The notes under the pieces: generated by a model
Told to the model about the DNA's origin: nothing
Seen by the model: the letters and a program-made list of their open reading frames with translations, nothing else
Databases searched by the model: none
Translations under genes and position numbers: made by a program
Source of the DNA: Bradyrhizobium diazoefficiens
GTDB taxonomy: Bacteria; Pseudomonadota; Alphaproteobacteria; Rhizobiales; Xanthobacteraceae
Direction of reading: 5' to 3'
Length of the DNA: 64,000 nucleotides
NCBI RefSeq assembly: GCF_016616235.1
Contig: NZ_CP067100.1
Location: 7,437,001 to 7,501,000, forward strand
Shown here: piece after piece, positions 23,149 to 34,387 of the stretch
Position numbering within the stretch: the stretch's first letter is position 1
Layout of the letters: the number at the start of each line of letters is the position of its first letter

Positions 23149-23442
23149 GGGTTTCCTCCTCGCCCGGTCGGGACCCGGGATCGTCCGCAGCCTCGTTCCG
23201 GGCTGCTTTGGCCGTAATGTTGAGCACAGCAACCGTTGTCGTCACACGACCGGCAGGGCGAAGACAAGATCAGCTCCTGTGGATTCTGTCCTGCTCCGCC
23301 CGACCCAGCTGCTCAAAACATATGCAAATGCCCTCGAACGGGCGCTAGGGCTGCGACACATCGGCTGGTCGAAATATCCTATAACTGCATGATAGCTCGA
23401 CAATATCCGGAGCACTGGTCGCTGCCCCGGTAATGTACACAA

Positions 23443-23459
23443 TGGCACGTCGCTTGCTT
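23443..23459 (+). promoter_or_regulatory. Sigma-54 promoter for atzF
   Basis: TGGCACGTCGCTTGC is an exact match to the -24/-12 consensus TGGCACG-N4-TTGC. It ends 41 bp before the atzF ATG at 23498, giving a leader of about 30 nt. RpoN dependence would fit nitrogen-limitation control through NtrC. I did not find a clear NtrC box upstream; the rest of the 349-bp divergent gap (23149-23497) shows only an AT-rich stretch near 23372-23408. Confidence 0.8.
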
Positions 23460-23497
23460 CAATCCAGGCGAGGACAAGTTGCCGGAGTTTTGTCGCT

Positions 23498-25312
23498 ATG
23501 GGGGCTGAGCAGCCTGAAACGATCGCCGCGATCGTGGCCGCGCATCGTGCGGGCACGATGACGCCGGCGCAGACGATCACGCGGACTTATCAGCGCATCC
23601 GCGACCACAACGACCCCGCCGTCTTCATCAGCCTGCGCGACGAGCAGGACGCGATTGCGGAAGCCGAAAAGCTCGCCACGAAGGACGCGGCCGGCCTACC
23701 GCTCTATGGCGTGCCGGTCGCAGTGAAAGACAATATCGACGCCCTCGGATTTCCCACCACCGCGGCCTGCCCCACCTTCTCCTATACGCCGACGCACGAT
23801 TCGACCGCGGTCGAACGGCTGCGCGCAGCGGGCGCGATCATCATCGGCAAGACCAATCTCGACCAGTTCGCGACCGGCCTCGTCGGCGTGCGCTCGCCCT
23901 ACGGCATCCCGAAGAACCCGATCCGCGAGGATCTCATCCCCGGCGGATCGAGCTCGGGCTCCGCCGTGGCGGTCGGCGCTGGCCTCGTGCCGCTGTCGCT
24001 CGGCACCGACACCGCCGGCTCAGGCCGCGTGCCGGCGATGCTCAACAATATCGTCGGGCTGAAGCCGAGCCTCGGCATGATCTCGACCGCGGGCCTGGTG
24101 CCGGCCTGCCGCACGCTCGACTGCATCTCGGTGTTCGCGCTGACGGTGGACGACGCCGCGCTCGCGCTCTCCGTCTTGGCCGGCCCCGACCAGGCCGATC
24201 CGTTCTCGCGCGACCGGCCGCTCGGCGCGATCACGACGTTTCCGGCGAACCTGCGCCTCGGCGTGCCGCGCAGCGGCCAACTGATTTTCTTCGGCGACAA
24301 GACGGCGGAGGCCGCCTATGGCGAGGCGCTGAAGCGCTGGACCGCGCTCGGTGCTGGCCTGGTCGAGTTCGACCTCGAGCCGCTCTACGAGACGGCGCGG
24401 CTGCTGTATGAGGGACCGTGGGTCGCCGAGCGCTATCTCGTGATCAAGGGTCTGCTGGCGTCCGCGCCTGATTCGATTCATCCGGTGACGCGCGATATCA
24501 CCGCGGCGGGCGCGCGGCTCACGGCCGCAGAAACCTTCTCCGCGCTGTATCGCCTGCAGGGACTGCGCAAGATCGCCGAGCGCACCTTCGCAAACGTCGA
24601 CGCGCTGGTGCTGCCGACGGCGCCGACGGCGTATACGACTGCGCAGGTGCTGGCCAATCCGATCGAGCTCAACAGCCGGCTCGGCACCTACACCAACTTC
24701 GTCAACCTGCTCGACCTGTGCGGTCTTGCGGTGCCGGCATCGATGCGTGCGGACGGCATTCCGTTCGGCATTACGCTGCTCGCGCCGGCTGGACGCGATG
24801 CGCTGCTCGCCAGCATCGGACGCGTCTTCCACGCGGATACGGAGCTGACCATGGGTGCAAAGCGCGTGGCGCAACCTGCGCTCGCGCCACTGCCAGCAAG
24901 GGGCACCGACGAAATTCCGATCGCGGTGGTCGGTGCGCATCTCTCCGGCATGGCACTCAACGGCGAATTGACGGCGCTGAACGCAAAGCTGGTCGAAGCG
25001 ACCAGGACCGCCCCCGATTACAAGCTCTATGCACTCAAGACCACGCCGCCGAAGCCGGGCCTGCTGCGCGTCGAGGCCGGGACAGGCGCCTCGATCGAGC
25101 TGGAGATCTGGTCACTGTCATCCTCCGCCTTCGGCAAGTTCGTCAACGCGATCCCCGCGCCGATGGCGATCGGCACCATCAGGCTAGCCGATGGCCCCCG
25201 CGTGAAGGGATTTCTGGTCGAGCCGGAAGTGTTGGGTGACGCCCGCGATATCACGGCGTATGGCGGATGGCGCGCCTATATGAAGGAAGCCGCGGCGAGG
25301 CAAGTCTCGTAG
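23498..25312 (+). CDS. atzF: Allophanate hydrolase (AtzF type)
   Basis: 604 residues. N-terminal amidase-signature domain with the Ser-cisSer-Lys triad: Lys77 (GVPVAVKDNID), the cis-Ser in GGSSSGSA (about 151) and nucleophile Ser175 (GTDTAGSGR). The C-terminal domain (about 460-604; IAVVGAHLSGMALNGEL, KGFLVEPEVLGDA) is typical of allophanate hydrolases and removes the second carboxyl group. It splits allophanate into two ammonia and two CO2. It faces the operon encoding AtzG/AtzE-like proteins, whose product would be allophanate, and has its own sigma-54 promoter. No urea carboxylase gene is in the window. Confidence 0.9.
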   Translation: MGAEQPETIAAIVAAHRAGTMTPAQTITRTYQRIRDHNDPAVFISLRDEQDAIAEAEKLATKDAAGLPLYGVPVAVKDNIDALGFPTTAACPTFSYTPTHDSTAVERLRAAGAIIIGKTNLDQFATGLVGVRSPYGIPKNPIREDLIPGGSSSGSAVAVGAGLVPLSLGTDTAGSGRVPAMLNNIVGLKPSLGMISTAGLVPACRTLDCISVFALTVDDAALALSVLAGPDQADPFSRDRPLGAITTFPANLRLGVPRSGQLIFFGDKTAEAAYGEALKRWTALGAGLVEFDLEPLYETARLLYEGPWVAERYLVIKGLLASAPDSIHPVTRDITAAGARLTAAETFSALYRLQGLRKIAERTFANVDALVLPTAPTAYTTAQVLANPIELNSRLGTYTNFVNLLDLCGLAVPASMRADGIPFGITLLAPAGRDALLASIGRVFHADTELTMGAKRVAQPALAPLPARGTDEIPIAVVGAHLSGMALNGELTALNAKLVEATRTAPDYKLYALKTTPPKPGLLRVEAGTGASIELEIWSLSSSAFGKFVNAIPAPMAIGTIRLADGPRVKGFLVEPEVLGDARDITAYGGWRAYMKEAAARQVS

Positions 25313-25437
25313 GATGGGCAAAGCAACTTGTCCGCCGTAGCTCAAAGAGCGAAGGCGGAAGCGTGCCCACCCTCATCATTCGTCGAGATAGGTAGTGGAC
25401 ACGGCGCTTCGCACCTTTTGCCCATCCTACGGCACTG
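25311..25437. repeat. GTAGGATGGGCAAAG-type inverted repeat
   Basis: Outer arms GTAGGATGGGCAAAG (25311-25325) and CTTTTGCCCATCCTAC near 25416-25432 are complementary; inner GAAGGCGGAAGCGTGCCCACC has a matching partner. A degenerate relative is at 42756-42850. It lies between the convergent atzF and the small leftward gene and may help end both transcripts. Confidence 0.7.
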
Positions 25438-25444
25438 ATTTCAT

Positions 25445-25660
25445 TCACGCCGATTTGCGCCAGGCGGCTTCGTTCTTCTTTTCGTAATCGTCGAATGCCT
25501 TGACAAGGCCGGACAGGACTTCGGCCGAGGTTTCAAACATCGCGGCGAGCTGCGGCTCGTCGACCTTGCGGATGTCTTCGCGCAGATGCGTCACCGTCTC
25601 CTGGAGACGCTGCTTCATCTTCTGGGTGTGATGGCGAGGATCTTTCTCGGAGGATGCCAT
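25445..25660 (-). CDS. Small charged helical protein, function unknown
   Basis: 71 residues starting MASSEKDPRHHTQKMKQRLQ and ending NEAAWRKSA. It is rich in charged residues and likely a helical or coiled-coil protein (ETVTHLREDIRKVDEPQLAAM). A strong AAGGAG site precedes the ATG at 25660. It follows the GntR gene by 109 bp on the same strand and could be the last gene of the operon. I do not recognise the family precisely. Confidence 0.65.
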   Translation of the reverse strand: MASSEKDPRHHTQKMKQRLQETVTHLREDIRKVDEPQLAAMFETSAEVLSGLVKAFDDYEKKNEAAWRKSA

Positions 25661-25769
25661 GAGGTTTCTCCTTTTCGGATCGATGGTGGGAAACAATCGA
25701 GGCAAAGCCCGGTTCCTGGCAGCAGACGGCGCGCCTTCACCTCATGGTGAACGTGCAACGGTGCGGAAC

Positions 25770-26492
25770 TCAGACCGAGACCGCGTAGATCTCGTATTCG
25801 CCGCGCACCAATTCGATATGCGCGCGCATCGCCGCGGCGGCGCCCTGCTTGTCGCCGCGCATGATGGCGACAACGATGCGGTCGTGCTCGGCCTGCGATT
25901 TTGCCAATCGGCCGAGATTGCGGAACTGGGCGCGACGGAACGGCTGCACGCGCACGCGGGTGGCGAGCGTGATCTCGGCGATGTAGCCATTCTGCGATCC
26001 CGCATAGATCGCGTTGTGGAAGCGCTCGTTGACCTCGTGGAAGCGATCGGGATTGCCGGCGTAGCTCAAAACTCGCAGCTCTTCGTGAACAGCCTCGAGA
26101 CCATGACGCTCGGCGGCGGACATGCGCTCGGCCGCAAGGCCGGCGCACAATGCCTCCAGCTCCGCCATCGCGTCGAACATGCTCTTGAGCCGCTCGATCG
26201 AGGGCTGCGCCACCACCGCCCCGCGATGCGGCCGTGCCTCGACGAGGCCGCTTGCGACCAGCTGGCGCAGCGCCTCGCGCACCGGCGTGCGCGAGACGTT
26301 GAAGCGGCGCGCGATGTCGGTCTCGTCCAGCGGCGCACCGGGGGCCAGGGTCCCGCGCACGATCTCGTCGGCGAGCTGCAGGCGCAATTCTTCGGCGCGC
26401 GTGACCTTGTGCACGCTGGGCTGCGCCCGGTCGACCCGTGGCACCACCGGCTCGGCCGGCAACGTCCCGCGCGGAAGATCGTCAAGCGTCAT
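25770..26492 (-). CDS. GntR-family (FadR/FCD subfamily) transcriptional regulator
   Basis: 240 residues. N-terminal winged helix about 33-100 ([40 protein letters not shown]) and an all-helical FCD ligand-binding domain with metal-type residues in [14 protein letters not shown] and [10 protein letters not shown]. The ATG overlaps the stop of the HpxZ-like gene by four bases, so it is the regulatory tail of the import and hydrolysis operon and probably senses its substrate or an intermediate. Confidence 0.9.
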
Positions 26493-26884
26493 ACGGTCTC
26501 TTTCGGCTCGTCGATGATGCTGACATGGGCGGCGACGACGCGCCAGCCCTCCGGGAAGCGAATCCAGGTCTGCATCTGCCGGCCGACCTTGCCCGGCAAG
26601 GTCTCGCGATAGAAAAGCGTCGAGGCGACGGCCGTGTCGCGGCCATAGCTGGTGATGACGGTCTTCGCAGTGCGACGATTGAGGCCGACCGGCGAGCGGG
26701 CGGCGCGGAAGCCGGCGATCGCCTGGTAGCCGTAGAGGTTCTCGCCGATGCCGTAGCGCAGGGTGCGGGAATCATTGCGGAACAGCTCGCCGAGCACGGC
26801 GACGTCGTTGCTGACGAGGGCCTGCTCATAGCGTTCGAACGCGGCTTTGACTTCCGCGATCACGTCAGGGAGATCGACCTCCAT
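26489..26884 (-). CDS. hpxZ: HpxZ/AtzH-like NTF2-fold protein
   Basis: 131 residues of the HpxZ (DUF3225) family with a SnoaL/NTF2-like fold ([20 protein letters not shown], then [13 protein letters not shown]). HpxZ is linked to oxalurate breakdown; from memory, AtzH of cyanuric-acid degraders, a decarboxylating amidohydrolase acting on 1,3-dicarboxyurea, is of the same type. The gene lies between atzE and the GntR gene, one base after the atzE stop. In this context it most likely removes or prevents a dead-end intermediate before allophanate. Confidence 0.75.
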
Positions 26885-26885
26885 C

Positions 26886-28280
26886 TCAAAGTCCTCTCGA
26901 CGCGGGCGCAGCGACGACGCCCATCTTTTCCAACGTGTACGCGACGCGCAGCGCGATGTCCTCGCGCCAGGGCGCGACGATGATCTGCACGCCGATTGGC
27001 AGCGGCTCGAGCGGCACGGGAACTGCGACCACAGGCAGGCCGATGAAGGAGATCGGCTGGGTGTGGATGCCGATGTTGGCGCGCACCGGCAGCTCGACGC
27101 CGTCGAGGTTGAAATTCACCTGACCGAGCTTTGGCGCGGTGCAGGGTGTCGCCGGCGCAATCAGCACGTCGACCGATTTGAATATCTCGGCGAACTGGGC
27201 GCGATACCAGCGGCGGAATTTTTGTGCGCGGTCGACCAGCGGCGCCGGCACCATCGCGCCTGCGATCAGCCGGTCGCGCACCGCCGGATCGAAATCGTTC
27301 GGCCGCTTGCGCAGGCGATCGAGATGCAGCGAGGCGCCTTCGGTGGTGGTGATGACATAAGCCGCCGCGCGGGCGCGCGCGGCTTCGGGAATATCGACCA
27401 CCTGCGTTGCGCCAAGCGCCTTGGCGACGCGGCTGACGGCCTCGACAGCTTCCGGAAACACGTTCTTCTGGAAGTAGCCGCCGGCGATCGCAATGCGCAG
27501 GTCCGAAACCGGATTGCCAAGCAGCGGCAGCGTCGGCTCGAGCCCACGCGTCGCGCAGGCGCTGTCGTCGGCATCCGGGCCCTGCATCACGTCATAGGCG
27601 AGCGCAAGGTCGGTGACGGAGCGCGCGAACGGACCGAGATGATCGAGGCTCGCGACGAACGGGAACGAGCGCGCGCGCGATAGCCGGCCATAGGTCGGCT
27701 TCAGGCCAAAGATGCCGCAGAACGAGGACGGCACCCGGATCGAACCATTGGTGTCCGAGCCGAGCGCAATCGGCACCAGCGCGCCGCCCACGGCGCTGCC
27801 GGAGCCGCCGGAGGAGCCGCCGGTCATCCGCGTGGTGTCGTGCGGATTGCGCGAGGGACCGTCATGGACGTTCTCGCCGGTGAAGTCATAGGCGTATTCA
27901 CCCATGTTGAGCGCGCCGACGAGCACGGCGCCGGCCGCTTCCATCCGCTCGATCAGCGTGGCGTCACGCTTGGCCGGCGCGAGGTCGCGGTTGATCCTGG
28001 AGCCGGCCCGGGTCGGAAGTCCGGCGACATCGAACAGGTTCTTCACCGCGAAGGGCACACCGGCGAGCGGACCGACGGTCTTGCCCGCGGCGATATCGGC
28101 ATCGATCGCGCGCGCTTTCGCACGAGCCCGCTCGGCCGTGACGTCGGTGAAGGCATTGAGGATGGTGTCGTGCTGCTTGATGCGTGCAAGAGCCGCTTCG
28201 ATGGCATCGCGCGCTGACATCTTGCGGCCGGCAACCGCGGTGGCGATCTCTGCGCCCGTCATCTCTGGCTTGGCGGTCAT
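26886..28280 (-). CDS. atzE: AtzE-type amidohydrolase (amidase signature family)
   Basis: 464 residues. Catalytic triad Lys80 ([10 protein letters not shown]), cis-Ser in GGSSGGS (about 156) and Ser180 ([10 protein letters not shown]). The start [19 protein letters not shown] and overall form match AtzE, the 1-carboxybiuret hydrolase, and related Hpx amidohydrolases. AtzE works as a complex with the small AtzG protein, encoded immediately upstream here. The true substrate cannot be read from the sequence: carboxybiuret, oxalurate and other acyl-ureas are open. Confidence 0.8.
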
Positions 28281-28287
28281 GGCAGCA

Positions 28288-28479
28288 TCAGGCCGTAAAG
28301 ACCGGCGCCGGCTCGGTCTCGTCCGGCAGCGCGAATTCGTCGACGAGGCGGCCGAGCCGCAGCGAGACTTCCAGATTGGCACGCACCGCGGGCCGCCAAG
28401 CCTCCTCGACCGGCAGCGCCAGCGCTTTCGATACGGCGTCGATATAGTCGTGGATATGATTGTCTTGCGGCTCGGCCAT
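28288..28479 (-). CDS. atzG: AtzG/HpxX-like small subunit (DUF4089, GatC-like)
   Basis: 63 residues starting MAEPQDNHIHDYIDAVSKAL. It matches AtzG, a GatC-like partner that binds and stabilises AtzE (LPVEEAWRPAVRANLEVSLR is the typical core). I used the ATG at 28479; a TTG upstream is less likely. It lies 15 bp after the ABC ATPase stop and 7 bp before atzE, so ATPase, AtzG and AtzE are made from one transcript. Confidence 0.8.
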   Translation of the reverse strand: MAEPQDNHIHDYIDAVSKALALPVEEAWRPAVRANLEVSLRLGRLVDEFALPDETEPAPVFTA

Positions 28480-28494
28480 CACGTTTCCAAACAA

Positions 28495-30330
28495 TCAGTG
28501 CACCGGCAACGACGGATGCGGGATCGCCGTCAGCAGCTCCTTGGTGTAGTCGTCCCTGGGATCGCTGAGGACCTGCTCGGAAGGGCCCTCTTCGACGATC
28601 CGCCCCGTCCGCATCACAATGACACGATCGCACAGCAATCGCACCACATTCAAATCATGCGAGACGAACAAATAACTCATGCCTAGCCGCTGCTTGAGAT
28701 CCTGTAGCAGATTGAGGACCACGGCCTGGACCGAGACGTCCAGCGCCGCGGTCGGCTCGTCCAGGATGACGAGTTTCGGATGCAGCGCAACGGCGCGAGC
28801 GATGCCGACGCGAGCCTTCTGGCCACCCGACAATTGGTGCGGGAAGCGATCCAGCAGATCGTGCGGCAGGCCGACCATCGTGGCCAGTTCCTCGCAGCGG
28901 GCGCGGAGCGCGTCTCGCCCTCTGATGCCGCCGAGCTGCATGATCGGATCGGCGATGGCGCGCGCGGCGGTGAAGCGCGGGTTGAGGCTGTCGGTCGGGT
29001 CCTGGAACACCATCTGGATACGGCTGCGCTGCGGCAGGCGGGCGAAGGCGGCAGGTGCGATGCCGGAGATCGCCTCGCCGTCGAACTGGATCAGGCCGGA
29101 GGTCTGGTCGAGCAGCCGCATCACCATCATCGAGGTGGTCGATTTGCCGCAGCCGGATTCGCCGACGAGGCCGACGCTTTCGCCGTGGCCGATCGAGAAG
29201 CTGATGGCGTCGACGGCGCGGAAGACGTCAGGCTCCGCCGGCGGCTTGCGGCCGAATAGCTTTCCGAGCGTCGCGGTGGCGCCCTGACGGGGGTATTCCT
29301 TGACGAGCTTTTCGATGAGGAGGAGAGGCTGCTGATTCTTCTCCCTTTCCCCGTCCTTCACGGGGAGAGGGTTGGGGTGAGGGGCCGCCTCAGCGAGCAC
29401 GGTGCGTGGAGAGTCCCCCTCATCCGCCGCACCCTGGAGCGCAATTGCGCTCCCGGATGCGTCGGCCTCTCCCCGCGCGCGGGGAGAGGCGAAGGCAGCG
29501 CCCTCCTCCTCTGGTAACAGATCCCGCAAGGACACACCAAGCCGCGGCGTGGCGCGCATCAGCTTCTTCGTGTAGGGGTGCTGCGGGCTCGCGAAGATGT
29601 CGGCGGCCTTCGCGGTCTCGACCACCCTTCCCTTCTCCATCACCACGACGCGGTCGCAATAGGCGGCGGCGAGGCCGAGATCGTGGGTGATCAGGATGGT
29701 CGACATCGCGCGCCGCCTGGTCAGCTCGACGATCAGGTCCATCACCGCCTTCTGGGTGGTGACGTCGAGGCCGGTGGTCGGCTCGTCCGCCATCAGCAGC
29801 TGCGGGTTGCAGGCCAGCGCAAGCGCGATGACGACGCGCTGGCACATGCCCCCCGAAAGCTCGAACGGATAGGCGTGGTAGCGCTCGCGGGGGCGGGCGA
29901 TCTTGACCTGCTCCAGCGCCTCGATCGCTTTCTCTCCGTGGTCGGCGACCTGGGCCTGCTGGACATGGGTGCGCAGCACGTCCTCGATCTGGTCGCCGAC
30001 TTTGCGGATCGGATTGAGCGCCGCGCGCGGGTTCTGGAAGATCATCGAGACTTCGCGGCCGCGCAGATCGCGCATCTGGTCTTCGGTCGCGGCCTTGACG
30101 TCGATGCCCGAGAACATCACCGAGCCCTCGGCGATCCGCCCGGCACGGTCGAGGATGCGCATCACCGCATAGGACGTCACCGACTTGCCGGAGCCGGACT
30201 CGCCGACGATGGCGAGTGTCTCGCCCTTGCCCACGGAGATGTCGACGTGCTGCACGGCTTTGACGATGCCGCGGCGGGTGGTGAATTCGACGGTGAGGTC
30301 GTGGATGTCGAGCAGGCGCTGGGCGGTCAT
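28495..30330 (-). CDS. Double ABC ATPase of oligopeptide-type transporter (DppD-DppF fusion)
   Basis: 611 residues containing two complete nucleotide-binding domains. Domain 1: Walker A GESGSGKS (43-50), signature LSGGMCQ (158-164), Walker B LLMADEP. Domain 2: Walker A GESGCGKS (390-397), signature LSGGQKAR (500-507), Walker B LVILDEP. Such fusions serve peptide/nickel-type (PepT family) importers. The linker, about 277-331, is encoded by a palindromic repeat kept in frame and contains HPNPLPVKDGERE. The ATG at 30330 follows the DppC-like permease gene. Confidence 0.9.
   Translation of the reverse strand: MTAQRLLDIHDLTVEFTTRRGIVKAVQHVDISVGKGETLAIVGESGSGKSVTSYAVMRILDRAGRIAEGSVMFSGIDVKAATEDQMRDLRGREVSMIFQNPRAALNPIRKVGDQIEDVLRTHVQQAQVADHGEKAIEALEQVKIARPRERYHAYPFELSGGMCQRVVIALALACNPQLLMADEPTTGLDVTTQKAVMDLIVELTRRRAMSTILITHDLGLAAAYCDRVVVMEKGRVVETAKAADIFASPQHPYTKKLMRATPRLGVSLRDLLPEEEGAAFASPRARGEADASGSAIALQGAADEGDSPRTVLAEAAPHPNPLPVKDGEREKNQQPLLLIEKLVKEYPRQGATATLGKLFGRKPPAEPDVFRAVDAISFSIGHGESVGLVGESGCGKSTTSMMVMRLLDQTSGLIQFDGEAISGIAPAAFARLPQRSRIQMVFQDPTDSLNPRFTAARAIADPIMQLGGIRGRDALRARCEELATMVGLPHDLLDRFPHQLSGGQKARVGIARAVALHPKLVILDEPTAALDVSVQAVVLNLLQDLKQRLGMSYLFVSHDLNVVRLLCDRVIVMRTGRIVEEGPSEQVLSDPRDDYTKELLTAIPHPSLPVH
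29341..29490. repeat. Palindromic repeat inside the ABC ATPase coding sequence
   Basis: Contains CCCCGTCCTTCACGGGG within 29347-29366 and CCTCTCCCCGCGCGCGGGGA with its completing bases at 29466-29490, the same arms as the intergenic repeats near 7900 and 13270, plus the usual GGTTGGGGTGAGGGG tail. The whole element is read without stop as the interdomain linker. Confidence 0.8.
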
Positions 30331-30424
30331 GCCGGCCTCCCGCCACTCAAAGCGTCGAAAACAACCCCATGCACAGTAGAGACCGCTTTGGAATCCTTGG
30401 GGATTTTTTGACGGCAATTGGCCA

Positions 30425-31324
30425 TCACGTCCTCCGCTGGGGGTCGACGATATCGCGCAGGCCGTCGCCGAGGAGGTTGAAGCAGAACACGGCGATCATC
30501 AGCGCGAGGCCGGGGAACAGCGCGATCCACCATTCGCCTGAGACCATGAAGCCCGCGCCTTCGGCGACCATGATGCCCCATTCGGCGGTCGGCGGGCGGA
30601 CGCCGAGGCCGATGAAGGACAGGCCGGCGGCATTGAGGACGGCGTAGCCCATGGTCAGCGACATCTGCACGATCATGATCGGCATGATGTTCGGCAAAAT
30701 GTGCACCAAGAGGATGCGAAATTCGCCGTTGCCGGAAAGCCGCGCGGCCTGCACGAAGCCGGCGTTGCGGCGCACATTGGCCTCGGCGCGTGCGACGCGG
30801 GCATAGAGCGGGAAGTTCACGATGGCCGTGGCCAGAATAATGTTCTGCACGGTGTTGCCGAGGGCGGCGACGATACCCATCGCCAGCACGAACAGCGGGA
30901 AAGCCATGATGGTGTCGGCGATACGGCCGACGATGCGGTCGGTCCAGCCGCCGAAATAGCCGGCGGCGATGCCGGCGAGGCCGCCCATCAGGAACACCAG
31001 CGCGACGGAGGCGACCGCAATGAAGGTGTCGAGCCGGGTTGCGACGATGACGCGGCTAAAGATGTCGCGGCCGAGCTGGTCGGTGCCGAACCAGTGCGCG
31101 GCCGATGGCGGCTTCAACGAGGCCGCCGTGTCGGATGCGAGCGGATCGTATGGCACCACATAGGGGCCGAAGATCGCGGCAATGAGGATCATGATCAGCA
31201 GGGCGAAGGCGAAGCCGGTGACCCTGTTCTCGCCGAGCACGTAGCGGGTCTGGTCGAGGATGGCGACAAGCCCGGACGTGCGGGCGGGAGCGACAGGTTC
31301 AACAGCAGGCGCAACGGAGCTCAT
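30425..31324 (-). CDS. Oligopeptide-type ABC permease (DppC family)
   Basis: 299 residues, about six membrane helices, N-terminal cytoplasmic extension. HWFGTDQLGRDIFSRVIVAT and the ATPase-contact motif YARVARAEANVRRNAGFV are typical of DppC/OppC. It starts 3 bp after the DppB-like stop; the ATPase gene follows after 94 bp. Substrate is inferred from the linked hydrolases: a small nitrogen-rich amide or peptide-like compound. Confidence 0.9.
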   Translation of the reverse strand: MSSVAPAVEPVAPARTSGLVAILDQTRYVLGENRVTGFAFALLIMILIAAIFGPYVVPYDPLASDTAASLKPPSAAHWFGTDQLGRDIFSRVIVATRLDTFIAVASVALVFLMGGLAGIAAGYFGGWTDRIVGRIADTIMAFPLFVLAMGIVAALGNTVQNIILATAIVNFPLYARVARAEANVRRNAGFVQAARLSGNGEFRILLVHILPNIMPIMIVQMSLTMGYAVLNAAGLSFIGLGVRPPTAEWGIMVAEGAGFMVSGEWWIALFPGLALMIAVFCFNLLGDGLRDIVDPQRRT

Positions 31325-31327
31325 GAT

Positions 31328-32341
31328 TTAGCCCTCCAGCCGCACGCGCGGATCGATCACGCCGTAGAGAATGTCGATGACGAGATTGAGCAGCACGTAC
31401 ATCACCGCCATGGTCAGCACGAAGCCCTGCACCGGCGCGAAGTCCGACGCGATCAGCGCCTCCACCGCGTAGGAGCCGATGCCGGGCCAGGCGAACACTT
31501 TTTCCACCAGCACGTTGGCGCCGAGCAGGAACGAGAACACCATACTCAGCGTGGTGATGACGGGCAGCATCGCGTTGCGGAAGGCGTAGGTGACGATGAC
31601 GGTCGCAGGCGACAGGCCACTGGCGCGTGCGGTGCGGACGAATTCGCTTGCGAGCACGGCCAGCATCGAGGCGCGGGTCATGCGCGCGATCGGCGCCAGC
31701 GAAAAGATCGCCAGCGTCGTCGCCGGCAGAATCAGCTGGCTCAGCGCCGAGCGGAACGCCTCGACGTCTCGCGCGATCAGCGTGTCGATCAGATAGAAAC
31801 CGGTCACCGTCGGTGGTGCGCTATAGAACACATCGAGCCGGCCGAGCGGCGCGGGCGACCAGCCGAGCCGGAAATAGAAGACGTAGACCAGCACGAGGCC
31901 GGTGAAGAACACCGGCAGCGAGACGCCGGCTGTCGTCGTCACCCGACAGAGATGATCAATCCATGATCCCGGCCGCGTTGCCGCGAGAACGCCGAGCGGG
32001 ATGGCTATGACGATCGAAACGATCAGGCCGAGCAGCGTCAGCTCGGCGGACGCGGGCAGACGATTGCGGATTTCGGCCGCGACCGGCTGGCCCGTGGTCA
32101 GCGAGTTGCCGAAATCGCCACGGGCGAGATCGCCCGTGTAGCGGAAGAACTGCTCGATCAGCGGCCTGTCAAGGCCGAGTTTTTTCCGGATCTGCTCGAC
32201 GGCTTCCTTGGTCGCGGCGGGGCCGGCGAAGTAGGCGGCAGGATCGCCGGGCAGCGCCCGCGTCAGCAGGAAGGTGACGATGACGACCCCGACCAACGAG
32301 GGAATCGCGAACATCAGCCGCTTGCCGATCATGGTGAACAT
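31328..32341 (-). CDS. Oligopeptide-type ABC permease (DppB family)
   Basis: 337 residues with the family opening MIGKRLMFAIPSLVGVVIVT and TRALPGDPA, and the loop EFVRTARASGLSPATVIVTY. I placed the start at the ATG at 32341 because GGAG lies 6 nt upstream; ATGs at 32353 and 32332 are possible. It follows the binding-protein gene across a 197-bp gap containing a palindromic repeat. Confidence 0.85.
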   Translation of the reverse strand: MFTMIGKRLMFAIPSLVGVVIVTFLLTRALPGDPAAYFAGPAATKEAVEQIRKKLGLDRPLIEQFFRYTGDLARGDFGNSLTTGQPVAAEIRNRLPASAELTLLGLIVSIVIAIPLGVLAATRPGSWIDHLCRVTTTAGVSLPVFFTGLVLVYVFYFRLGWSPAPLGRLDVFYSAPPTVTGFYLIDTLIARDVEAFRSALSQLILPATTLAIFSLAPIARMTRASMLAVLASEFVRTARASGLSPATVIVTYAFRNAMLPVITTLSMVFSFLLGANVLVEKVFAWPGIGSYAVEALIASDFAPVQGFVLTMAVMYVLLNLVIDILYGVIDPRVRLEG

Positions 32342-32397
32342 GCGGTGCTCCATCCGCCTTGCGTCTGTGAGCACGCCCGCCCCGCACGCACCGCTGC

Positions 32398-32510
32398 GTT
32401 CCCTCCCCCCTTGTGGGGGAGGGCTAGGGAGGGGGGTGGCTCCGGGAGAGGTCTGAGTTCGTGGCTACCCCTCTCCCCAACCCTCCCCCACAAGGGGGGA
32501 GGGAGCCTGA
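32398..32510. repeat. Palindromic repeat between binding-protein and permease genes
   Basis: CCCTCCCCCCTTGTGGGGGAGGG (written here as arms CCCTCCCC and GGGGAGGG, 32402-32424) and CTCCCCCACAAGGGGGGAG around 32481-32505. As in the Liv-type operon, it directly follows a solute-binding-protein gene, a place where such elements can protect the upstream mRNA. Confidence 0.75.
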
Positions 32511-32538
32511 AGAGCGTGCTCACGTCGCCCATGTTCCC

Positions 32539-34161
32539 TCACCCCTTCGCCATCGCGCGGTAGTCGAGCCTCCGGTGGAACCAGTATTGGTAGCCGCTGA
32601 TGTTCTTCTGCATCGCGACGTTGACGAAGGGCTGGTACAGCGGAATCCGCGGGATGTCGGTGTAGGCGAGATCGATGAAGCCTTTCACGTCGGTGTCGTA
32701 GGCCGCCATGTCGCCGGCAGCTGCTGCAACGCGCGCGCCGTCGATCAGTCTGTCCATCTCCGCCGACTTGTAGCTCATGGTGTTGAAGACGGAATTGTTG
32801 CCGTGATAGCACCAGTAGAAGAAGTATTCGGGGTAATCGAGCCAGCCCGAGAACACGTTGGTGAAGAGCGGCATCTCCTTCTTGTTCAGCTCGGTGCGCC
32901 AATTGGCGCCGGGCACCTTGTTGATGGTGGTCTTGATGCCGATCTGCGCGAGGCTCTCCTGGACCAGCACGCAGAGCGGCTCGTTGACGCCGGCAAAATT
33001 GAGGTCGAACGAGATCGTGGTCTCGAAACCGTTGGCGTAACCGGCTTCCGCCATCAACGCCTTCGCCTTGTCCATGTCGGTGTTGTATTTGTGCGGCTGC
33101 GGCCAGGCGACTTCGGTCGGCTTGTCCTTGGGTGCGCCGAACATCGGGTTGGCGAGGCCGAACATCACCGCGTCCATGATCTTCTGATAGGGCAGCGCGT
33201 AGGCCACTGCCTGCCGCACCTTCGGATTGTCGAACGGCGGCCTGGTGACGTTCATGCCGATATACTGGATGCCGTTGGAGAACGGCAGCGACACCACGTT
33301 GAGCTTGCCGTTGGCCTTCATCTCCTGAAAGTCCTTGTTCGGCAATTCGTAGGAGATGTCGGCGTCGCCGCGCTCGAGCAGCGCGCGACGGTTGCCGGCC
33401 TGCGGCACCATGCGCCAGATCACGCGCTTGATCTTCGGCAGCGGACCGCAGACCCAATCCTCGTTGCGCTCCATGATCACTTCGGTGCCGGCGGTCCACT
33501 TCGTCACCTTGTAGGCGCCGGAGCCTGCGGTCTGCTGTTTCGTGAACTCGAGACCCCAGGGATCCTTTTCGCTGGCGTTCTTCTTGACCAGCTCCGAGTT
33601 GACGATGCAGGGCACGATGACCGCGAGATCAGGGATCGTCAGCCTGTCGTTCTTCAGAAAGTCGACGCGCACGGTGTGGTCATCGATCACCACGAACTGC
33701 TCCGGCTTGGTGAGAGAGCCCGCGCTCATCTGGAAGGTCGGAAAGCCGCCGACGCTGACGGCGCGGTCGAGCGACCATTTCACGTCTTTTGCCGTGACAG
33801 GCGTGCCGTCGTGGAATTTGGCATTCTTGCGCAGCTTGAAGGTGACCGACATGTCGTCGAGCCTAAAGTCCTCGGCGAGCTCACCCCTAAACTTGTCGCG
33901 GTCGTAATACGGCACGCCGCCGGGGCCGCTCTTCATCTCATGGCTGATCAGCCGGTCGTAGCAATTCCAGGACACCTCGTAGCCGGGCACGTTGGTGCCG
34001 ACGCCGTGGATGTCGAGATTGTTTGGGCCGCCTTCCGACACGATCAGCAGCGTCTCCGAGCGCGCGTCGGCGTAGGCGGAGGAGATCACCTGCGGCACCG
34101 CCGGAAGCGCTGCGCCTGCGGCCAATCCGGACACGGACTTGAGGAAATCGCGGCGCTTCAT
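32539..34161 (-). CDS. ABC solute-binding protein, family 5 (peptide/nickel/opine type)
   Basis: 540 residues. A twin-arginine signal (MKRRDFLKSVSGLAAGAALP) implies folded export. SBP_bac_5 fold: FKLRKNAKFHDGTPVTAKDV near the start and QYIGMNVTRPPFDNPKVRQA in the middle. It is the first gene of the leftward operon with a sigma-54 promoter 44-58 bp upstream. It selects the compound that the AtzGE-type enzymes attack; the ligand pocket cannot be read from sequence. Confidence 0.9.
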   Translation of the reverse strand: MKRRDFLKSVSGLAAGAALPAVPQVISSAYADARSETLLIVSEGGPNNLDIHGVGTNVPGYEVSWNCYDRLISHEMKSGPGGVPYYDRDKFRGELAEDFRLDDMSVTFKLRKNAKFHDGTPVTAKDVKWSLDRAVSVGGFPTFQMSAGSLTKPEQFVVIDDHTVRVDFLKNDRLTIPDLAVIVPCIVNSELVKKNASEKDPWGLEFTKQQTAGSGAYKVTKWTAGTEVIMERNEDWVCGPLPKIKRVIWRMVPQAGNRRALLERGDADISYELPNKDFQEMKANGKLNVVSLPFSNGIQYIGMNVTRPPFDNPKVRQAVAYALPYQKIMDAVMFGLANPMFGAPKDKPTEVAWPQPHKYNTDMDKAKALMAEAGYANGFETTISFDLNFAGVNEPLCVLVQESLAQIGIKTTINKVPGANWRTELNKKEMPLFTNVFSGWLDYPEYFFYWCYHGNNSVFNTMSYKSAEMDRLIDGARVAAAAGDMAAYDTDVKGFIDLAYTDIPRIPLYQPFVNVAMQKNISGYQYWFHRRLDYRAMAKG

Positions 34162-34204
34162 GGCAGGTGCTCCAACACAAAAGTCTTTGGTTGGAGCTGG
34201 CTTC

Positions 34205-34219
34205 GCAAGGTTCGTGCCA
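34205..34219 (-). promoter_or_regulatory. Sigma-54 promoter for the import-hydrolysis operon
   Basis: On the minus strand TGGCACGAACCTTGC is an exact TGGCACG-N4-TTGC match. It ends 44 bp before the ATG at 34161, leaving a leader of about 33 nt. Spacing and strength mirror the atzF promoter at 23443. The upstream region 34220-34387 is AT-rich near 34258-34277, as is common where IHF bends DNA for NtrC-type activation. Confidence 0.8.
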
Positions 34220-34387
34220 AGGCTTAACGAGGCATTATCCTCGCACCAAGCTACTGAAATGATGAATTATTTTTCCTATTTTCGCGTCACGCTGCAAGAG
34301 GCGGCAATGCTATTGCTTGCATACAAAGCTGCGAGATTGACTAAATAATAAGCTGACAAGGAGTAGAGCCCATTCGGAAGGCGGCGC

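Follow-up and report, generated by a model that had tools for sequence, protein, structure and literature searches.

In the 64-kb window of Bradyrhizobium diazoefficiens DNA analysed here (the whole stretch of 64,000 nucleotides from position 7,437,001 to 7,501,000 of contig NZ_CP067100.1; coordinates count from its first nucleotide), the gene atzF faces an operon that encodes an importer, AtzG, AtzE, AtzH and a GntR regulator. On the plus strand, atzF (23498..25312) codes for an allophanate hydrolase of 604 amino acid residues that scores 808 bits with TIGR02713, which is above the cut-off, and that comprises a PF01425 amidase and a PF21986 C-terminal domain. The operon on the minus strand starts with the gene for a family 5 substrate-binding protein (32539..34161; PF00496, 278 bits), followed by those for a DppB-type permease (31328..32374; PF00528, PF19300), a DppC/DdpC-type permease (30425..31324; PF00528, PF12911) and a Dpp/Gsi-type double ATPase (28495..30333; PF00005 twice, PF08352). 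The nearest solved or named relatives of this Dpp/Opp-type importer are carriers of peptides, glutathione and similar compounds. Further downstream lie atzG (28291..28479) for a small subunit of 63 residues (PF13318, 62 bits), atzE (26886..28280) for the predicted catalytic subunit of 1-carboxybiuret hydrolase (TIGR02715, 764 bits), the hpxZ-type gene atzH (26489..26884) for a predicted 1,3-dicarboxyurea decarboxylating amidohydrolase (PF11533, 195 bits) and, as the last clear gene, gntR (25770..26492) for an FCD-type regulator (PF00392 and PF07729). These family scans agree with a preliminary description of the same DNA, which had listed an importer, AtzG/AtzE- and HpxZ/AtzH-like proteins, a GntR regulator and an allophanate hydrolase.

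The AtzE of the window shows 53% identity to AtzE from pADP-1 and scores 502 bits against the structure 6c62, which carries the database label 'Biuret hydrolase' and which we take to be the AtzE of Pseudomonas sp. ADP. As an AtzE-type amidase is encoded together with the small AtzG subunit, both components of an AtzEG complex are present. AtzH scores 150 bits against the AtzH structure 6bjt, and its residues Y19 and R43 pair with a tyrosine and an arginine of 6bjt; the offset is the same for both, and by this offset they would correspond to the catalytic Tyr22 and Arg46. Judged by eye, the linker of the double ATPase (about 29300-29500, minus strand) and the gap at 32376-32538 (minus strand) downstream of the binding-protein gene contain similar proline-rich, repeat-like stretches, perhaps an intergenic repeat that was inserted in frame within the ATPase linker.

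Both units are preceded by an exact sigma-54 promoter, TGGCACGTCGCTTGC (23443..23457, plus strand) in the case of atzF and TGGCACGAACCTTGC (34205..34219, minus strand) in the case of the importer-atzGEH-gntR operon. The site is separated from the ATG by 40 nt at atzF (ATG at 23498) and by 43 nt at the importer operon (ATG at 34161), in accordance with the distances of 41 and 44 bp proposed earlier. The motif TGGCACG-N4-TTGC occurs exactly twice in the window, where dinucleotide shuffles lead one to expect 0.06 copies, and none of 100 such shuffles holds two. In the whole genome (7,668,734 bp, one contig) the sigma-54 pattern was matched exactly 18 times, compared to nine times for the reversed control; because of this only twofold excess a lone exact match is weak evidence, and the two sites of the window are taken as real because they are conserved. 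In a genus sample of 60 regions and 80 named loci (the latter nearly all from Bradyrhizobium, the few others from Tardiphaga, Afipia and further relatives; 134 loci distinct by AtzE DNA), in most of which the gene set is retained, at least 9 of 11 promoter positions are matched before atzF in 124 of 125 loci (all except L166) and before the importer operon in 114 of 114. Wherever both regions were readable, both promoters reach this score (110/110 loci), compared to 4 of 239 base-shuffled upstream regions. The aligned -24/-12 bases are nearly invariant and the flanks are variable. Two exact sites that bracket the facing units, as first described, are therefore present, conserved and not due to chance. 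They had also been called perfect, and both do match exactly, but relatives rarely have the G that occupies position 7 at atzF, as this element reads TGGCACA in 116 of 125 upstream regions and TGGCACG in only four, those of the window and three others.

A dyad is found upstream of each promoter. Sites for NtrC have a TGC-N11-GCA frame, the enteric consensus being TGCACC-N5-GGTGCA, and glnK and urtA are textbook targets of this activator. At atzF, the dyad TGCTCAAAACATATGCA (23310..23326, plus strand) lies 133 bp upstream of the -24 element and matches 11 of the 12 defined positions of TGCYYA-N5-TRRGCA, whereas the dyad AGCTTATTATTTAGTCA of the importer operon (34338..34354, minus strand), 135 bp upstream of its -24 element, is degenerate in this strain and matches only 10. 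A dyad with at least 10 of 12 matches is present in 122 of 124 atzF regions and 109 of 114 importer regions (9/124 and 7/114 after shuffling); in 120 and 92 of these regions, respectively, it lies at a distance of 120-139 bp. All 30 glnK loci have a dyad with 11 or 12 matches, located about 121 or 160 bp upstream, compared to at least 10 matches in 2 of 30 shuffled regions. The 16 other exact sigma-54 sites of the genome include three with a dyad of at least 10/12, all at 131-135 bp, and these precede trtA, urtA (TIGR03407, over the cut-off) and a formate/nitrite-transporter gene; the distances are 132 bp for the transporter gene (L176) and 135 bp for urtA (L186), the urtA dyad matching 10 of 12. 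No dyad accompanies the sigma-54 sites of nifH and nifD, where the best matches amount to 9/12 and 8/12 (urtA, nifH and nifD were identified by NCBIfam). The literal form TGCYYA-N5-TRRGCA, found at four places in the genome and at two with the reversed control, is too strict because the dyads of the window and of trtA carry mismatches. Because of its TGC-N11-GCA frame and its occurrence before glnK, the dyad is read as the probable NtrC site of this genus.

A second element shared by the two units is a candidate operator for the GntR protein. The sequence ATGTACACAA (23433..23442, plus strand) abuts the -24 element of atzF and matches TTGTRYRCAA at 9 of 10 positions, and TTGTATGCAA (34317..34326, minus strand), located about 105 bp upstream in the importer promoter, is the only exact TTGTRYRCAA of the window. 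Across the genus loci, at least 9 of 10 positions are matched at the exact offset abutting the atzF -24 element in 113 of 124 cases, with a shift of 2 bp in six more, and this operator nearly always reads NTGTACACAA; at the importer operon TTGTATGCAA is identical in 105 of 114 loci and has one mismatch in the remaining nine. With an FCD-type GntR protein (PF00392, PF07729) encoded within the operon, TTGTRYRCAA is probably the operator of this local regulator; its form is similar to operators of the GntR/FadR subfamily. Behind gntR, an open reading frame of 71 codons (25445-25660, minus strand) has no Pfam match at E≤0.001 and occurs in 6 of 140 relative loci with 95-99% identity.

The third member of this group, trtA, lies 1.67 Mb from the units of the window (G000:C1 5792534-5793229; L197:8531-9229). 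Its product is an isochorismatase-fold hydrolase in which all residues that separate triuret from biuret hydrolase according to passages of PMC7948467 are of the TrtA type (F35, N41, A134, E160, Y187, Q202 and I205) and in which the catalytic residues D24, K129 and C162 are present. It scores 290 bits against TrtA (6xix) compared to 230 bits against BiuH (6azo), and with 265 of 370 bits it remains below the BiuH equivalog cut-off. Judged by all diagnostic residues considered, this gene encodes the triuret hydrolase TrtA. In 30 of 30 close trtA loci (L220-L249) the promoter consists of a sigma-54 site matching 10-11 of 11 positions, the operator TTGTACACAA abutting the -24 element and a dyad at 131-133 bp, and among 20 more divergent loci (L317-L336) all 20 have the sigma-54 site, 17 the operator and 17 the dyad at 131-132 bp. 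All three promoters are thus built from the same parts, with a dyad about 130 bp upstream, an operator and -24/-12 elements about 40 bp before the ATG, the operator abutting the -24 element at atzF and trtA, unlike at the importer operon. A TrtA query (E≤1e-40) matches 230 and an AtzE query (E≤1e-80) 234 of 242 genus genomes; both match in 226, atzE only in eight, the trtA query only in four and neither in four (Fisher p 2e-4), a statistic that is confounded by incomplete genomes and was not used as main evidence.

Next to trtA, 29 of 30 close Bradyrhizobium loci contain a gene for an NCS2-like membrane protein of about 530 residues, which in these loci shows 78-87% identity to a Terrarubrum protein; it also adjoins trtA in 14 of 20 short divergent loci, and it is not found beside trtA in the genome of the window (L197, L220). 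Scanned relatives of this neighbour gave no Pfam, NCBIfam or PDB match. That the protein, called a 'regulator' in Terrarubrum, might be TrtB was considered and dropped, as several relatives on plasmids are annotated as NCS2/xanthine permeases, and a transporter is more likely. The genome of the window encodes a second isochorismatase (L250, G000:C1 2768540-2769154) with residues Y35, Y41, S134, D160 and T187, by eye those of BiuH. Relatives of TrtA also occur on plasmids, with 78 Escherichia and 15 Klebsiella among 291 matching records and, among the matches listed, 65% identity.

Published expression data connect these genes to RpoN. For Bradyrhizobium DOA9 (our locus L094), passages of PMC13207237 report that in rpoN mutants atzF is strongly down and atzE is down, as are, by gene name, dppB, dppD, dppF, ddpB, ddpC, oppF, gsiA and gsiB. 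Also down is the isochorismatase BRADOA9_v1_41390, for which an RpoN site TGGCACGGCGCTTGC is given at -37. The trtA of DOA9 (L317) bears the identical site 36 nt before its ATG, and because the promoter site is identical BRADOA9_v1_41390 is very probably trtA.

Beyond the genus, AtzE was detected at E≤1e-100 in 31 of 385 genomes of the class Alphaproteobacteria. Of 20 class loci from outside the genus, the genes of which stem from codon scoring and are approximate, 11 have atzF in the same stretch, 7 a Dpp-type importer and 10 sigma-54 sites; just before the importer binding-protein gene such a site is found in five of the seven importer-bearing loci, despite other gene orders. A stop-free trtA with full diagnostic residues lies near atzE in seven of the 20, at 0.3-2.8 kb in six of them and at 7.7 kb in L208, and a Bmp-type transporter is present in L208 and L214. 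On plasmids of Terrarubrum and Paroceanicella trtA is close to atzE as well, and in Terrarubrum flagellatum genes for two Dpp-type permeases, an ATPase, TrtA, the NCS2-like protein, AtzF, AtzG, AtzE and AtzH are consecutive. Exact TTGTRYRCAA occurs 14 times in nine of the 20 class loci, compared to 1.0 in base shuffles. It stands before importer genes and atzF (L201, L203, L211 and L214), at or just before the start of trtA (L215, L216, L218 and L219), before atzG (L213) and before the Bmp transporter (L214); for one match in L213 and two matches in L215 the placement is less clear.

Some loci of the genus sample show rearrangements of the same parts. In L166 (Bradyrhizobium sp. S69) the importer is gone, with the first codons of the binding-protein gene remaining as a scar, and the sigma-54 site is now 75 nt upstream of atzG. 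Next to atzGEH-gntR, a single trtA-type promoter is followed by a trtA that is free of stops and has all diagnostic residues, a permease gene and atzF, all in one direction; trtA is close to atzE here too, within the range of 0.3-8 kb. The importer is also gone in L161, where the sigma-54 site is kept 82 nt before atzG, and in L159 the site is lost. Given the conserved promoters, the sites in other families and the RpoN dependence in DOA9, there is good support for a sigma-54 regulon that joins atzF with the importer-atzGEH-gntR unit, as the preliminary description had supposed. Its claim that this regulon is under nitrogen control is supported only indirectly, by a dyad at matched distance that also precedes glnK, urtA and the formate/nitrite-transporter gene. 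That description did not include trtA as a third member, a probable additional level of control by the local GntR protein or the likely origin of the substrate of AtzEG.

From the observed promoter parts, their conservation, the gene neighbourhoods and the TrtA residues, we consider it likely that the three transcription units form a dispersed NtrC/sigma-54 regulon with additional GntR control that serves to obtain nitrogen from triuret or carboxybiuret, in the order TrtA, AtzEG, AtzH and AtzF. The chemistry is known from Pseudomonas ADP and Herbaspirillum (PMC6219798 and PMC7948467, in part): TrtA converts triuret to carboxybiuret and NH3 (PMC7948467), AtzEG removes ammonia from carboxybiuret to form dicarboxyurea, from which AtzH presumably makes the allophanate used by AtzF (PMC6219798), and according to a discussion passage of PMC7948467 AtzEG can act on the product of TrtA. 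In Bradyrhizobium, NtrC would bind to the dyads under nitrogen limitation and activate sigma-54 polymerase at three promoters, and GntR, presumably by binding to the candidate operator, would add control by the substrate. TrtA would then hydrolyze triuret to carboxybiuret and NH3, AtzEG would convert carboxybiuret to 1,3-dicarboxyurea and NH3, AtzH would remove one carboxyl group from 1,3-dicarboxyurea to give allophanate, and AtzF would cleave allophanate to 2 NH3 and 2 CO2, so that all four nitrogens of triuret would be freed as ammonia and biuret would be bypassed. The importer may carry a substrate of this pathway.

Several observations weigh against such a triuret regulon. The importer is of the peptide type and not of the Bmp type of known triuret operons, and among the seven trtA-linked class loci a Dpp-type importer is found only in L214 and atzF, within the fetched stretch, only in L208 and L214. 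No sigma-54 or operator match was obtained in the Terrarubrum and Paroceanicella loci, and the two isochorismatases that adjoin atzGEH in Salipiger fail the TrtA residues. Within the genus, atzE occurs without a trtA match in 8 of 234 genomes, and 3 of 230 matches of the TrtA query (G175, G219 and G241) have BiuH-like E-values. As the genome also encodes BiuH and an AtzD-family protein, AtzF has other suppliers. With regard to regulation, the dyad of the importer operon is degenerate in this strain, a strict pattern of sigma-54 site plus TGC-N11-GCA matches only atzF and urtA genome-wide, and TTGTRYRCAA is matched at 33 places of the genome, with 40 strand matches compared to 21 for the reversed control, which is only a twofold excess. 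The strain also has no NCS2-like permease gene next to trtA, unlike the other 29 of 30 close loci. The genus loci are related by descent, the shuffles of upstream regions keep base content only, in contrast to the dinucleotide shuffles used for the site counts of the window, and the DOA9 data come from nitrogen-fixing conditions and may include indirect effects (PMC13207237, in part).

The strongest alternative, though an unlikely one, retains the regulon and assigns the importer and AtzGEH to another acyl-urea, such as a ureido- or carbamoyl-peptide or the oxalurate proposed for HpxXYZ, with trtA acting in parallel and joining only at allophanate via spontaneous decarboxylation to biuret and BiuH. 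An importer of the dipeptide/glutathione type would fit such a substrate, AtzH is also above the NCBIfam equivalog cut-off for HpxZ (199 compared to 135 bits), and HpxY of Klebsiella is sister to the ADP AtzE in the AtzE tree; the BiuH paralog, the eight genus genomes with atzE and no trtA match, and the single Dpp-type importer among seven trtA-linked class loci point the same way. However, six of these seven class loci have TrtA near atzE and no BiuH-type match in the stretch (L208 has both), the Terrarubrum permease, ATPase, trtA, atzF and atzGEH genes are consecutive, HpxW, a gamma-glutamyltransferase, was not found among the 10 reading frames of the cluster that were scanned, and no sigma-54 site above 9/11 is present in the 3.6-kb locus of BiuH.

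It is improbable that the regulon responds to an activator other than NtrC that recognises TGCYYA-N5-TRRGCA. The inner bases of the dyad do differ from the enteric NtrC consensus, but its TGC-N11-GCA frame is that of NtrC sites, and the dyad precedes glnK in all 30 loci and, with 10/12, urtA, while it is absent at nifH and nifD. Still more doubtful is a split cyanuric acid pathway, in which an AtzD-family protein (G000:C1 1566364-1567461) would feed carboxybiuret to AtzGEH and AtzF as in Pseudomonas ADP. The best scores of this protein are 436 bits among cyanuric acid hydrolases and 312 bits among barbiturases, so that it is nearer to the former, and the downstream genes are the same as in pADP-1, yet at E≤1e-60 an AtzD-family match is obtained for 146 of the 242 genus genomes, compared to 234 for AtzE and 230 for the TrtA query, and no sigma-54 site of at least 9/11 lies within 1.7 kb of the AtzD-family gene; cyanuric acid hydrolysis by AtzD was therefore rejected as the main role. 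The gene for this ring-opening amidohydrolase (L173:9361-10461) adjoins an amidase-like open reading frame. That the sigma-54 matches arose by chance, for which the genome excess of only about twofold could be quoted, has a negligible probability and is rejected in view of their conservation in 110 of 110 readable genus loci and the RpoN dependence reported for DOA9 in passages of PMC13207237.

A broader proposal builds on the triuret regulon. Processing of carboxybiuret in triuret catabolism may have been the original role of AtzG-AtzE-AtzH, under NtrC/sigma-54/GntR control in Alphaproteobacteria, and the s-triazine (cyanuric acid) operon may have recruited the set later; this idea is tentative, and we lean slightly against it. 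In a tree of 45 AtzE sequences, trtA-linked members appear in several separate clades and the ADP AtzE falls inside a group with trtA-linked loci (support 0.94), some deep nodes being weak (0.0 and 0.48). If the proposal is correct, TrtA would be the missing carboxybiuret maker, and it would be explained why atzGEH clusters frequently occur without atzD, a question left open in passages of PMC6219798.

Among known systems, the triuret pathway of Herbaspirillum BH-1 and nitrifiers (TrtA-TrtB-BiuH-AtzF; PMC7948467 and PMC12625717, in part) shares with the one proposed here the TrtA specificity residues, AtzF as end point and the scavenging of organic nitrogen. However, Herbaspirillum BH-1 and the nitrifiers use the TrtB/BiuH branch, whereas here AtzEG and AtzH appear to reach allophanate without biuret; known triuret operons encode BmpA-NupABC (PMC12625717, in part), whereas here a Dpp-type importer is found, plus the NCS2-like permease by trtA in most genus loci; and the genes are dispersed in our case but have common promoter parts. 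The abstract of PMC12625717 names trtA, biuH and atzH of nitrifiers together and passages of its body mention atzF, and in the corresponding parts of PMC7948467 and PMC12625717 trtA and atzGEH are not described as one pathway. No paper containing both 'triuret' and 'Bradyrhizobium' was found in open-licence PMC. Triuret is a fertiliser impurity and a product of uric acid oxidation, and it may form in plants, as proposed in PMC7948467 (in part). If our reading is right, triuret would be a usable nitrogen source for most Bradyrhizobium, a genus of important soil bacteria and symbionts of legumes.

The cyanuric acid operon atzDGEHF of Pseudomonas sp. ADP (PMC6219798, in part) has the same AtzG-AtzE-AtzH-AtzF set with the same predicted chemistry. 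In contrast to that operon, the cluster of the window lacks atzD, the only PF09663 match of the genome being at 1.566 Mb; the ADP operon has a LysR neighbour, whereas here sigma-54 and GntR elements are found and an importer is included; and the ADP operon resides on a catabolic plasmid, whereas AtzE occurs in 234 of 242 genus genomes. In Klebsiella hpxWXYZ, HpxX, HpxY and HpxZ are homologous to AtzG, AtzE and AtzH; unlike there, HpxW is not among the scanned frames of the cluster, AtzF is linked here, and TrtA is linked in other families. For the widespread atzGEH clusters, whose role is left open in passages of PMC6219798, the proposed regulon would offer a natural substrate and a control logic.

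With regard to the RpoN regulon of DOA9, RpoN dependence of single genes is already published, as atzF, atzE and the isochorismatase with the trtA promoter site are listed there (PMC13207237, in part). The main text of that paper, as far as accessible, mentions GntR nowhere and NtrC once, in a reference title. The identity of TrtA, the shared operator and the AtzEG/AtzH branch seem to be new. In passages of PMC13207237 the genes are not brought together as a pathway, and the label given to the isochorismatases is 'infection- or virulence-like', whereas our comparison suggests that the RpoN-dependent isochorismatase of DOA9 is better understood as a nitrogen-scavenging enzyme.

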